Part shown: positions 18,537 to 33,990 of the stretch, piece after piece | Position numbering within the stretch: the first letter of the stretch is position 1 | Layout: each line of letters opens with the position of its first letter | DNA from: an uncultured Alphaproteobacteria bacterium | GTDB lineage: Bacteria; Pseudomonadota; Alphaproteobacteria; Rs-D84 | Assembly (NCBI GenBank): GCA_947367055.1 | Contig: CANBCI010000001.1 | Coordinates: forward strand, 124,001-188,000 | Direction of reading: 5' to 3' | DNA: 64,000 bases | The notes under the pieces: model-generated | The model's database searches: none | Told to the model about the DNA's origin: nothing | The model's input: the letters and a program-made list of their open reading frames with translations, nothing else | Translations under genes and position numbers: made by a program

Positions 18537-19157
18537 TCAGTCGTGCGCGCATGGCGCCGACAGTATATAGGCTCCGCTGCTGTCTTTATAATTTCCGGTC
18601 GGCAATTTGCATTGCGCGACTGACGTACTGCCGGACGCACTGGTGCCATAGATAGTGGCGCCGCTTGAATTTTTCTCTCCCGGGCAGCGCGTGCAATTAA
18701 GCGATGATGTCGTGCCAACACCATAATAGCCCGACGCACACCTATATTCGTTTGTCGCCGTCGCATTACCTGTTGTCCCGCATCCGGAAACAACATTATA
18801 TTTTCTCTCACGGCCCGTCCCGGACGCTCGCCATTCAATCGTGGTGCTCATCTGGCACCCACAACCTATAAGTCTTGGACTGTTATTGTAATCAACAACC
18901 GCAGTGGCACCATTAAATTCCAAATCACACATGGATTCGCAATCCTCTACATAAGAACCGCCATATCCGTCAGAATAATAGCAAAGGTTTGAACCCTCGT
19001 CATAGCATTCGTCAATATCGGAACATTCGCCGGGCGATATGGGTTCACTTACCCCGCCAAAAGTATAAAGTATATTTACATTTGGATCATTATCATATAA
19101 ATAAGCATTTGCCGCAAACGGCAACATAAAAAACACCGCGACAATTATTCCCTTCAT
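18537..19157 (-). CDS. Secreted Cys-rich protein, unknown function
   Basis: I start at ATG 19157, seven codons inside the longest frame, because AAGGAG lies seven bases upstream and a clean signal peptide follows (MKGIIVAVFFMLPFAANA). The mature part, about 188 residues, has many Cys in short spacings (CSDIDECYDEGSNLCYY, CESMC, CGCQM, CTRCPGEKN), suggesting disulphide-bonded modules, and is rich in Ser, Thr and Gly. The segment GYYGVGTTSSLNCTRCPG resembles the Cys repeats of the products at 22.1 and 32.9 kb. A 166-base leader RNA with its own terminator lies directly upstream. No enzymatic motif is seen. Confidence 0.8.
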   Translation of the reverse strand: MKGIIVAVFFMLPFAANAYLYDNDPNVNILYTFGGVSEPISPGECSDIDECYDEGSNLCYYSDGYGGSYVEDCESMCDLEFNGATAVVDYNNSPRLIGCGCQMSTTIEWRASGTGRERKYNVVSGCGTTGNATATNEYRCASGYYGVGTTSSLNCTRCPGEKNSSGATIYGTSASGSTSVAQCKLPTGNYKDSSGAYILSAPCAHD

Positions 19158-19181: not shown

Positions 19182-19347
19182 AAAAAACCACTAAAAAATC
19201 AGTGGTTGGAGGTTCGAAACAATTATCAGGAATTGTGGGCTTATTTTGTTATATCGCCACCCTCCAACCTGTGGCTGGGGGAAATTTTTTCCTGATAAGG
19301 GGTTTCGACACCCCATCGGCAGAACGCCCACCGACAAATTTATTATA
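19182..19347 (-). promoter_or_regulatory. Structured leader RNA with terminator, type 1, copy A
   Basis: Minus-strand order: TATAAT (19347-19342); hairpin P0 (19334-19316); GGGTGT (19313-19308); P1 5' strand GAAACCCCTTATCAGGAA (19306-19289); small hairpin P2; hairpin P3 (19281-19261, CCCCCAGCC with GGTTGGAGG); an AAGCCCAC segment; P1 3' strand TTCCTGATAATTGTTTC (19232-19216); CCTCCAACC (19212-19204), complementary to the P3 3' arm; terminator stem AACCACT/AGTGGTT (19207-19186) and a T-run. The gene start is 25 bases further on. The CCTCCAACC segment can pair either with P3 or partly with the terminator, a classical attenuator design. Confidence 0.75.
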
Positions 19348-19406
19348 AATAAAATAAGAAATAATGTAAAACAAAATATGCGTCCACAAAAGAACGGGAC
19401 GCCTGT

Positions 19407-21903: not shown

Positions 21904-22088
21904 TATAATAAAAACGATGCGGGGTGTTCCCGTATCGGGGTGTCAGAGCCTATATCACGGCGTCCTTTGTCGGACGATAAATCTCCTGCCGACCGGCAGG
22001 AGGGTTGATGTTATATATTGAAGGCATCACACAATTTCCGTGAAATTGCTCTGAACCTCCTGCCACTCTGATTGAGTGGTTTTGTTTT
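21904..22088 (+). promoter_or_regulatory. Structured leader RNA with terminator, type 1, copy B
   Basis: TATAAT (21904-21909) is followed by hairpin P0 (21915-21937, CGATGCGGG with CCCGTATCG), GGGTGT (21938-21943), P1 5' strand CAGAGCCTATATCACGG (21944-21960), hairpin P2 (21961-21976, CGTCC/GGACG), hairpin P3 (CTCCTGCC with GGCAGGAG), a variable loop region, P1 3' strand CCGTGAAATTGCTCTG (22038-22053), CCTCCTGCC (22056-22064, complementary to P3) and terminator stem CCACTC/GAGTGG (22063-22079) with TTTTGTTTT. Every helix is kept while its bases differ from copies A and C. The Cys-rich gene starts 20 bases later. Confidence 0.8.
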
Positions 22089-22108: not shown

Positions 22109-23308
22109 ATGAAATTCAAAAAAATATCATGCGCGCTTGCCGCGATTATGTTTGCCGTTGCCGCGCATGGCAATGACATGCCGTCAAATATAAAAGATGC
22201 ATGGGGCAATCCCAAATTGATTTCTGAATCTTGGAACCGTGGCAAGGGACACGACAGCAGCACAAACATGCCGGACCAGACATTCTGGATGAGCAAAAAG
22301 GTCCGCGCCGCGAACGCAACCGACGAAGCGATTGTAATCGTATACATGGCGCGCCGGGTCGTATTACACGGCGGATACTTTTGCGCGACGCAACTGCGTT
22401 CACGTAACAAGGGTTCATCAGGATGCCCGGACATTTGGACCCAGTATCAAAACCCGGCCGGTGATTTTGAACGCACATGCTTTTGGCTGTGCGAACCGGG
22501 ATACACCGGTGAAAATTGTGCCAGCGGCACCGCAAAATCCGCGGACGCGTGCAAATACACAAACTTATCCGCGGACACACTGCTTAAAAACATAGATTTT
22601 CAGCAAACGGGCGGGTATGACACCGCAACGGTGGAAAGCGCCATACATGATGCCGGCGCACGGTTTGTTTACAGCAACACCACCCGCAGCTCTGACGAAT
22701 CCGACGTCATTCTTTTGGCAAAATCATATCTTGAAAACGGACACGGAATTGTCGCGTCGCCCGCAACATTTTCCGCACACGGCGGCATGTGGAACGCCGA
22801 CAATTATTCGGACGAATGGCTTGACTGCAAATATGGTGATTCCAATTTAACCGTGACGGCCAATGGCGGCGGCTACACAACAAAGATACTGTGCATGCCG
22901 GGATTTGACGGTGAAAACTGCAAAACCACACTTTGCAAAACATGCGACGATCCGCTTGCCAAATACAACGACGCAACGGGCTCCTGCAGTGATTGCATCG
23001 AAAACTATATCCGCAACAAAGCAGGCGAATGCGAAAAGTGTCCTGAGGGAACAACGGCGGTCCCAGATAAAAACATATGCCTGGAATGCAAGAAAACGGA
23101 ATATGTAAAGAACGGCGAATGCGCCCCACGGGCCGTAATTGGAAAAAATGTGCTTTACGATTGCTATCCAAACGAATACGCAAACGATTTCAAGGCATGC
23201 GTATCAGATACATGCACAAATGACATAAAGGTAAAATGCATAACCGCACAAAAACAAATCGGAACAAAAAAATGTACGAATGGCAAATGGGGCGCATGCA
23301 CAAAATAA
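22109..23308 (+). CDS. Secreted Cys-rich protein with EGF-like motifs
   Basis: A 399-residue exported protein with a signal peptide (MKFKKISCALAAIMFAVAAHG). The mature region has two EGF-like closing motifs (CEPGYTGENC near residue 130, CMPGFDGENC near 265) and a Cys-dense C-terminal third (CKTCDDPLAK, CSDCIENYIR, CEKCPEGTTAVP, CLECKK). Such CxxC-x(n)-CPEGT repeats are typical of disulphide-rich surface proteins. The middle part (residues 150-250) has no recognised domain. It lies behind leader copy B with a GGGGCGAGG ribosome site. I infer an extracytoplasmic structural or adhesive role only from export and Cys pattern. Confidence 0.8.
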   Translation: MKFKKISCALAAIMFAVAAHGNDMPSNIKDAWGNPKLISESWNRGKGHDSSTNMPDQTFWMSKKVRAANATDEAIVIVYMARRVVLHGGYFCATQLRSRNKGSSGCPDIWTQYQNPAGDFERTCFWLCEPGYTGENCASGTAKSADACKYTNLSADTLLKNIDFQQTGGYDTATVESAIHDAGARFVYSNTTRSSDESDVILLAKSYLENGHGIVASPATFSAHGGMWNADNYSDEWLDCKYGDSNLTVTANGGGYTTKILCMPGFDGENCKTTLCKTCDDPLAKYNDATGSCSDCIENYIRNKAGECEKCPEGTTAVPDKNICLECKKTEYVKNGECAPRAVIGKNVLYDCYPNEYANDFKACVSDTCTNDIKVKCITAQKQIGTKKCTNGKWGACTK

Positions 23309-32902: not shown

Positions 32903-33799
32903 TTACGCCAATTCAAACAAATACATTATTATGTCACGACCGCCGTATGACGCGCCGTCTGCAATTCCGGTGATATTCGTCTGATTTGTGTTTGTGTTCC
33001 ACTGGCCCGCCGGGGCGTACGATGTCGTCGCGGACACATATGTTTCATGGGCCGTATCAATAAAAAATTGAATTATATTGTTGCCCCAAATCGCCGCAAA
33101 TCCGACCGGGCGATCAAACACCGCCATATAAGCATACGACACTGATGCGCTCCGCCCGTCCAATGCATCGATTATATCCGGTCTGTTTGAAATTCCCGGC
33201 CCCTTGTAACGCGCGACAAAAAGGTAGGTTCCCGGCCCTATGGTTCCGCCCATGCACATGTCATCAACCGAAAATTCGTCCATGTTTGAACTGGTTATAT
33301 TCGCATTCATTTTTGCACAGGATTTTACCAGGCGCCAGGCACTCATGTCGGATTTCGGGATAAACTTTTCAACCGCGTCCAGTGTCATGAACTGGTTAAC
33401 ATGCGCCATGCCGGCCGCAGACGCAACGGCATTGGTTGAAAATGAATTGCCGGGGCACCCTATTGCGCCATATGTGCACACCGCGCGATGCAAACCGCCC
33501 GTGCAATAGTACCCCATGCCGCAATCCGTGCATTCACTGTTATTCTTTAAATACCGGCCCGGCACGCACCACTTGCCAACCCAATAATCCGTTGAATTTA
33601 CCCGCATACGAAGTGCGCCCGCGGGCGCATCGGACGAATACATCGCCCCGTACCACACGTCACCGTCGATTCCGACCGCCAATGACGGCGTAGTATGCCG
33701 CACCGTGTCCAGCGTCACGGAAGCGTTGCCAAAATGCAACACCCGCGCGTTCGCTGACGCGGAAAACATAATCACAAAAGCAAACACAAACCATTTCAT
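32903..33799 (-). CDS. Secreted protein with Cys-rich segment, unknown function
   Basis: I start at ATG 33799 (GTGGAA just upstream), which gives a signal peptide (MKWFVFAFVIMFSASANA); the longer frame to 33955 runs through the leader RNA. Of 298 residues, the part around 85-120 is Cys-rich (WCVPGRYLKNNSECTDCGMGYYCTGGLHRAVCTYGAIGCPG), quoted here as motif positions only in outline: CxxCGMGYYCTGG is its core. The rest looks beta-rich and includes an aromatic C-terminal region (AGQWNTNTNQTNITGIADG). It resembles the other two leader-controlled genes in export and Cys modules, not in overall sequence. No catalytic motif is seen. Confidence 0.8.
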   Translation of the reverse strand: MKWFVFAFVIMFSASANARVLHFGNASVTLDTVRHTTPSLAVGIDGDVWYGAMYSSDAPAGALRMRVNSTDYWVGKWCVPGRYLKNNSECTDCGMGYYCTGGLHRAVCTYGAIGCPGNSFSTNAVASAAGMAHVNQFMTLDAVEKFIPKSDMSAWRLVKSCAKMNANITSSNMDEFSVDDMCMGGTIGPGTYLFVARYKGPGISNRPDIIDALDGRSASVSYAYMAVFDRPVGFAAIWGNNIIQFFIDTAHETYVSATTSYAPAGQWNTNTNQTNITGIADGASYGGRDIIMYLFELA

Positions 33800-33808
33800 T
33801 TTCCACAC

Positions 33809-33990
33809 AAAAAACCGCCGGCATATTACAAGCGGTTGGAGGTTAGAAACTATAAAACGGTATAGTGGGCTTATTTTGTGTATTCGCCGCCCTCCAACCA
33901 TCTGGCTGGAGGTATTTTTCGTCCCCACGGACGCCGTTTTTATGAGTTTCCACACCCAACAGCATTATTTTATGCCGCATCGTAATTATA
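33809..33990 (-). promoter_or_regulatory. Structured leader RNA with terminator, type 1, copy C
   Basis: Minus-strand order: extended -10 TGTTATAAT with TATAAT at 33990-33985; hairpin P0 (33977-33960, CGGCAT/ATGCTG); GGGTGT (33957-33952); P1 5' strand GGAAACTCATAAAAACGG (33951-33934); hairpin P2 (33933-33920, CGTCC/GGACG); hairpin P3 (33912-33891, CCTCCAGCC/GGTTGGAGG); AAGCCCAC; P1 3' strand CCGTTTTATAGTTTC (33860-33846); CCTCCAACC, complementary to P3; terminator AACCGC/GCGGTT (33837-33813) with T6. The gene's ATG is only ten bases past the T-run, so the terminator tail holds the ribosome site. Confidence 0.78.

Follow-up and report, generated by a model that had tools for sequence, protein, structure and literature searches.

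Attenuator-like leaders with a phage C4/CI-type RNA layout in an uncultured alphaproteobacterium of the order Rs-D84

Introduction

The window analysed here is a stretch of 64,000 nucleotides from an uncultured alphaproteobacterium of the order Rs-D84. Three dispersed elements in it lead from a TATAAT box through a series of hairpins to a gene, and a sequence-only reading described them as copies of one attenuator-like leader. The question is what family such an RNA belongs to and how it might act on the gene behind it. C4 and CI RNAs are well known from textbooks as immunity factors of phages, which usually carry just one, and sRNA-Xcc1 has so far been regarded as a virulence-linked sRNA acting in trans.

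Three leaders in the window

The TATAAT boxes lie at 19347-19342 (minus strand, element E1), 21904-21909 (plus strand, E2) and 33990-33985 (minus strand, E3). Each is followed by a 5' hairpin, the motif GGGTGT, further hairpins, a terminator and a gene, at the places and on the strands that the sequence-only reading had given. The hairpin set it listed is present in E2 and E3, but E1 has no P2. Fold z-scores of the three elements are -5.6, -6.6 and -4.4, and none of 200 shuffles folds equally well. The parts of E2 are:

21904..21909, plus strand: -10 box TATAAT (sequence; fixed place just 5' of P0 in other copies)
21915..21936, plus strand: P0, the 5' hairpin (fold; compensatory change in the sister-species ortholog)
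21937..21952, plus strand: H1, with a1 (21943-21949) in its loop (107 copies covary in H1 and in a1:a')
21955..21960, plus strand: b1, complement of b' in the P5 loop
21961..21976, plus strand: P2 hairpin (fold; no U-run)
21982..22004, plus strand: P3, the anti-C4 hairpin (fold)
21995..22064, plus strand: C4/CI-like domain (covariation; layout as in phage P1 C4 and phage P4 CI)
22048..22054, plus strand: a', complement of a1 (98.9% of cells paired in 107 copies)
22062..22088, plus strand: intrinsic terminator, its 5' arm overlapping the 3' strand of the outer helix

The C4/CI-like domain runs from the 5' strand of the outer helix through hairpin P4, P5 with the b' loop and a' to the outer 3' strand. 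In the sister species both strands of P0 are altered (GCGGG/CCCGT to ATGGG/CCCAT). Phage homologues carry their terminator at the place that corresponds to P2, which lacks a U-run in E2. The parts of E1 are:

19342..19370, minus strand: promoter TTTACA-17-TATAAT (11 of 12 matches)
19315..19335, minus strand: P0 (fold)
19299..19314, minus strand: H1 with a1 (19302-19308) (covariation)
19289..19298, minus strand: b1 TTATCAGGAA, pairing with b' TTCCTGATAA (19223-19232)
19260..19281, minus strand: P3 (fold)
19204..19269, minus strand: C4/CI-like domain (covariation; RF02221 with 37.2 bits at 19196-19269)
Within this domain, minus strand: P4 19235-19260, P5 19219-19236, a' 19214-19220, outer 3' strand 19204-19212
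19182..19207, minus strand: terminator

Those of E3 are:

33985..33990, minus strand: -10 box TATAAT
33960..33977, minus strand: P0
33943..33958, minus strand: H1 with a1 (33946-33952) (covariation)
33934..33943, minus strand: b1
33920..33933, minus strand: P2 (fold)
33890..33912, minus strand: P3 (fold)
33834..33899, minus strand: C4/CI-like domain (covariation; RF02221 with 37.9 bits at 33826-33899)
Within this domain, minus strand: P4 33868-33888, P5 33849-33866, a' 33844-33850, outer 3' strand 33834-33842
33809..33837, minus strand: terminator (sequence)

Covarying pairings

Covariation was assessed in an alignment of 107 distinct copies. In total 93.2% of cells are paired, compared with 32-48% for slid partners. 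Changes on both sides of a pair occur in 346 cells (101 ± 13 in shuffles), and the covariation score of 0.404 compares with 0.148 in shuffles and 0.04-0.06 with slid partners. The sequence-only reading had seen helices that persist while paired bases change together and had proposed a covariance model as the check; covariation is overwhelmingly above background.

The strand 3' of hairpin P5, a', is the partner of a1. All four Watson-Crick pair types are found at three positions of a1:a', and 98.9% of its cells are paired. The small hairpin H1 that holds a1 in its loop is closed by GGG/CCC, elsewhere by AAGG/CCTT or GAGG/CCTC, and this stem covaries too (GC 60, AU 21). Both H1 and P5 show changes on both sides. 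An extension of helix P1 of that reading by GGGGT/AACCTC was rejected as a conserved helix in favour of H1 (86% of cells paired, merely 7 both-side changes). Directly after H1, b1 pairs with the P5 loop (b') over a mean of 8.1 bp, compared with 5.0 for mismatched copies, and only 3.5% of foreign loops equal the own loop in b1:b' score. The long closing helix P1 of the sequence-only reading is in fact two loop interactions, a1:a' and b1:b'.

The 9-bp outer helix encloses P4, P5 and a'. It is paired in 96.4% of cells, with exchanges from GC to UA and from UA to CG/AU. Its 5' strand also pairs with an arm upstream, forming P3, which therefore competes with the outer helix, and its 3' strand overlaps the 5' arm of the terminator (in some copies by just 2-3 nt). 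The "switch pair" proposed earlier stands as an alternative between a pairing and the terminator, but its identity changes: the helix concerned is the outer one of an antisense domain of C4/CI type. The switch segment can pair with the 3' arm of P3 or be left to the overlapping terminator, and to this extent the first description of a repeated, covarying, attenuator-like leader before exported proteins holds.

Among the own-genome copies there are 20 distinct a' in 38, and the own partner is the best one in 35 of 38. Avoidance of cross-pairing among paralogs was not found (strong matches 0.8%, compared with 1.2% for shuffled loops), which gives no support to active selection for orthogonality. 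The most conserved sequence of the copies is the loop of hairpin P4 (GAAUAUA ... AAUAA). Loci L122-L126 of a genome from another family of the order (G023) have the conserved strands of P4 swapped: their long apical hairpin carries AAAATAA in its 5' arm and GAATATA in its 3' arm and resembles a circularly permuted internal loop.

Copy number and spread

E1, E2 and E3 reach 150, 126 and 143 bits with a covariance model (R1) built from them, whereas no other place in the window exceeds 11 bits. In the own 0.96-Mb genome R1 detects 39 places, 37 of them at E<=0.01. At least two extra copies with a longer P2 were retrieved only via RF02221, the Rfam model of sRNA-Xcc1. The genome thus holds about 40 copies of what had been taken for a three-copy element, and they follow one plan: promoter, P0, GGGG..., terminator, ribosome site, gene. 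R1 hits lean towards the a1:a'/b1:b' structure, because a1:a' and part of b1:b' were built into R1 as pairs. Two control sets not chosen by R1, namely sRNA-Xcc1 loci and RF02221-found loci of the window's own order, have the same a1/b1 layout.

The search of related genomes that had been suggested for further copies retrieved the leader in 178 of 201 genomes of the order (18 of 23 genera). Among the class genomes sampled from outside the order, only 8 had it. When named genomes were scanned with a pattern, matches came from gut Alphaproteobacteria MAGs, including Candidatus Enterousia, a genus of Rs-D84 with genomes of ~1 Mb (PMC12306168). The window probably comes from this group. In the sister species the E1 and E2 leaders are conserved with unchanged a/b strands, and orthologous leaders are better conserved than the flanking DNA.

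Tandem pairs also occur in the own genome (C5:20857/21112, C3:144098/144344, C3:163607/163829, C1:52068/52307). Each consists of two complete leaders, with a promoter of its own for each, upstream of one gene. The a/b strands are nearly identical in the C5 pair and differ in the others. Three IMG/VR "viral" contigs (L162, L163, L164) each carry one leader of the type described here, followed by a signal-sequence protein gene in L162 and L164 and by a gene for an ABC-transporter-like protein in L163; these contigs are possibly host DNA or prophage edges. A search for repeats around the copies found nothing of note, and a simple repeat or insertion origin was rejected on that basis. Integron attC sites were considered because sRNA-Xcc1 occurs in integrons, and were rejected since the long palindrome is in the wrong orientation (GTT...AAC).

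Relationship to phage antisense systems

The proposed comparison with Rfam gave a distant relative below threshold and no riboswitch family, in line with the earlier remark that the usual TPP, cobalamin, SAM and preQ1 motifs are absent. The relative is sRNA-Xcc1 (RF02221), whose match covers the C4 part of E3 (37.9 bits) and E1 (37.2 bits), below the gathering score of 53. The E-values are about 1e-5 in short stretches (E1, E3) and 0.005 for E3 over the whole window; E2 gave no RF02221 match in the Rfam scan. RF01695 and c4-2 did not match E1, E2 or E3 up to E 10. The leaders are not in the Rfam C4 family by score, and its a2/b2 targets were not detected in them. Support is strong for their being a structured RNA family, of C4/CI type by layout.

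In the annotated phage P1 record the order is a1, b1, C4 RNA, a2, b2, and a c4-a1b1 motif was listed by Weinberg 2010 (PMC2864571). The leaders share with phage P1/P7 C4 the P0 hairpin, a1 in a hairpin loop, b1, an anti-C4 hairpin and the C4 domain, which is alike in the leaders and phage P1 (outer helix, two hairpins, b' loop, single-stranded a'). The C4 fold is present in the order of phage P1, with the outer helix and P5 covarying in 107 copies, and a1/b1 complementary to a'/b' lie upstream. There are also differences. In phage P1, a2/b2 targets lie near the icd ribosome site, whereas none were detected in the leaders. The outer helix has 17 bp in phage P1 and is folded by default (computed probability 0.98), compared with about 9 bp in the leaders. 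The phage P1 terminator precedes C4 but in the leaders it follows C4, and the phage gene encodes an antirepressor rather than a secreted or HTH protein.

Satellite phage P4 has the same layout. Its P0 (CTGCCG...CGGCAG) and H1 (CGGG[CGTGAGAA]CCCG) are followed by b1 TTCACAGG and the CI RNA, and H1 shares the near-identical core GGGCGTGAGAACCC with the leaders. A seqA hairpin and a CI-like RNA in one transcript are thus found in the leaders by layout. In phage P4 copies of both target strands lie at the next gene, 3' of the CI RNA. The seqC copies are at that gene's ribosome site, whereas seqC was not detected in the leaders. The phage P4 intrinsic terminator lies between seqA/b1 and CI, while that of the leaders overlaps the outer helix. 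The output in phage P4 is premature transcription termination by an antisense RNA from the same transcript (PMC4825925).

For sRNA-Xcc1, 36 RF02221 loci from other Proteobacteria were used, found without recourse to a1/b1. An upstream complement of at least 7 nt of the domain core is present in 35 of 36 (27% in controls). A downstream complement (a2/b2) is present in 22 of 36 (15% in controls), often across the ribosome site. These loci, which precede SymE-like, antirepressor-like and other genes (proteins read by eye), share a1/b1 upstream with the leaders but often add a2/b2 downstream. In one of them (L139, from another Proteobacterium) sRNA-Xcc1 at 1501-1588 is followed by a SymE-like gene. 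The ribosome site of this gene is part of CTCACAGGAG, a complement of the b' loop (CTGTGAG). By this complementarity sRNA-Xcc1 is predicted to repress symE, as C4 does icd/ant. Another locus has a c4-2 RNA match at L148:2890-2958 (minus strand; 34.8 bits, below gathering), 1.3 kb from its sRNA-Xcc1.

The Gifsy-1 IsrK-anrP-antQ system (RF01394) is comparable in that a terminated short RNA shares its promoter with a long mRNA. However, IsrK acts on orf45/anrP translation in a prophage, and its terminator stands after the 5' domain and not after the C4-like part. IsrK of Salmonella is described as a structural homolog of phage P4 SeqA, with the processed RNA STnc1160 complementary to it (PMC4825925). 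A weak Rfam isrK match in the window (33927-33978, minus strand, 17 bits, E 0.1) spans P0 and H1 of E3, and Xylella has an isrK match 46 nt 5' of a C4 RNA (PMC12189769). Rfam isrK may therefore represent the a1 portion of this same module.

Acinetobacter baumannii Group 1 is a large group of C4-like sRNAs cut from longer transcripts (PMC5320573). It shares with the leaders the many C4-like RNAs per genome and a variable a' loop, but is described as phage-derived sRNAs rather than as leaders with an attenuating terminator before scattered genes for secreted proteins.

Relocation of the terminator

A terminator-like site follows C4 in 96 of 107 leaders and lies between a1 and C4 in 4 of 107. The sRNA-Xcc1 loci have the terminator between a1/b1 and the antisense RNA in 22 of 36 and downstream in 2 of 36, so theirs are mostly upstream, unlike those of the leaders. 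Phages P1 and P4 likewise have it before the antisense RNA. Near the C4 end, 83% of the leaders have a strong U-run (6 of 7 T), compared with 3% of sRNA-Xcc1 loci. Relative to the phage systems, the terminator has, by sequence comparison, evidently moved from before to after the antisense RNA. Downstream repeats are only in slight excess: b2-like ones (at least 6 nt) follow 28 of 107 leaders (20% in controls) and a2-like ones 12 of 107 (4.6% in controls). Clear a2/b2 or seqC-like target copies were not detected for the 107 leaders of the window's order.

Genes behind the leaders

The genes that follow the window leaders are:

22109..23308, plus strand: E2 gene, 399 aa, N-terminal signal sequence, 6.3% Cys
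18537..19157, minus strand: E1 gene, 206 aa, secreted, Cys-rich (about 6% Cys)
32903..33799, minus strand: E3 gene, 298 aa from its ATG, secreted, 2.7% Cys

All three products had been called secreted and Cys-rich. They do appear secreted, but only those of E1 and E2 (about 6%) are clearly Cys-rich. None of the three has a Pfam match. Gene calls and signal sequences were assigned by simple rules. With this caveat, a signal-like N-terminus was found in 23 of 33 own-genome products (crude rule), compared loosely with 17 of 48 long window ORFs. Pfam domains among leader-controlled products are trypsin, PLD, glycosyltransferase 8, OmpA-like, PAP2 and HTH. In the own genome, leaders e09, e14, e18, e23 and e26 precede small HTH-like (Cro/C1-type) proteins, with HTH_3 confirmed by Pfam for the e18 product; such genes recall the phage regulator setting of C4.

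A probable default-off attenuator

The leader is probably an a1-b1-C4 (seqA-CI) plan that has multiplied on the chromosome and been converted into a cis-acting transcription attenuator. Transcription would start at P0. H1 would then offer a1 in its loop, followed by b1, and P3 would hold the 5' strand of the C4 domain. Once the C4 part has been made, b' in the P5 loop and a' would pair with b1 and a1. The outer helix of C4 would be blocked, the overlapping terminator hairpin would form and the gene would be off. Candidate triggers of the on state are masking of a1/b1 or removal of the 5' part, whether by a C4 molecule in trans, a protein or RNase P-like processing. In that state the C4 domain would fold and its 9-bp outer helix would take the 5' arm of the terminator, letting RNA polymerase read through. 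The scheme is supported in the sequence by two alternative pairings, covariation, terminator overlap, copy number and kinship of layout. The direction of the switch, its trigger and an action of released C4 RNAs on other leaders in trans are what we infer beyond this.

In the full leader the computed pairing probabilities are 0.93 for a1:a', 0.85 for the terminator and 0.01 for the outer helix. The outer helix rises to 0.27 with a1/b1 removed and to 0.78 when the RNA begins at C4. Mean energies of the forced states, -55.9 (terminated) and -42.8 (C4), agree with this. The leader is therefore best read as a default-off attenuator, predicted to be opened by masking or removing a1/b1, with a caveat that the switch direction rests on energy models that ignore pseudoknots. 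The terminator stays at 0.63 without a1/b1, and P3 plus terminator are still favoured, so the on state would need a further trigger. The probabilities are also consistent with premature termination in the leaders through antisense pairing. It is possible that released C4 RNAs act in trans.

Alternative explanations

The leaders could instead be mainly a source of trans-acting antisense RNAs, as in phage P1 and Acinetobacter, with control of the downstream gene secondary. The terminator would then merely end a ~180-nt C4-like sRNA that acts on other mRNAs. C4-type domains do act in trans in phage P1, A. baumannii has its large group processed from longer transcripts (PMC5320573), and the a'/b' loops vary between copies. 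However, a2/b2-like copies downstream are in slight excess only, the own a1/b1 matches every a'/b' in cis, and each leader stands directly before a gene, with the ribosome site 15-35 nt past the terminator. This explanation is unlikely.

Far less probable is a riboswitch for a metabolite or protein, in which the terminal part of P4 (GAAUAUA ... AAUAA) would be the sensor and the a/b pairings the expression platform. The conservation of the P4 loop would fit a sensor, and high copy numbers have a precedent, since second-messenger riboswitches can reach them. Against this, the Rfam scans detected no riboswitch family, and a similar P4 is present in sRNA-Xcc1, within phage antisense systems that are not known to require a ligand. 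The variable strands are recognition strands and not a ligand pocket: other readings are better than a small-metabolite riboswitch, as the covarying strands vary between paralogs in the manner of private recognition sequences. Selection on pairing, indicated by covariation, also makes it very improbable that the leaders are functionless today, as mobile repeats dispersed through the genome or as remnants of prophages, although relatives are found in phages, integrons and satellites (PMC12444791). Divergence is strong outside the pairing rules, orthologous leaders are more conserved than flanking DNA, and promoter, terminator and gene order are kept in nearly every copy.

Significance

From the phage-type layout, the position before secreted-protein genes and the added terminator, what was a control device of phages seems to have been turned into a genome-wide system of gene control. 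The usual count is one C4 or CI per phage, while this 0.96-Mb genome has about 40, and most genomes of the order carry the leader. With the relocation of the terminator the antisense RNA's own outer helix would become the antiterminator, and the regulated genes are secreted proteins rather than antirepressors. Phage P1 C4, phage P4 CI, IsrK and sRNA-Xcc1 are joined in one scheme, in which sRNA-Xcc1 is predicted to repress its neighbouring gene through a2/b2 pairing.

More tentatively, and with considerable doubt, the leaders may form a domesticated phage immunity module: a network of ~40 switches with private a1b1/a'b' pairs at secreted, outer-membrane and HTH genes, where siblings are set in trans. 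If true, the C4 RNA from one leader would set the state of siblings or relatives, which would give a reduced-genome gut symbiont programmable, heritable on/off expression of its surface proteins. The leaders are a plausible main mode of gene control in this uncultured lineage.
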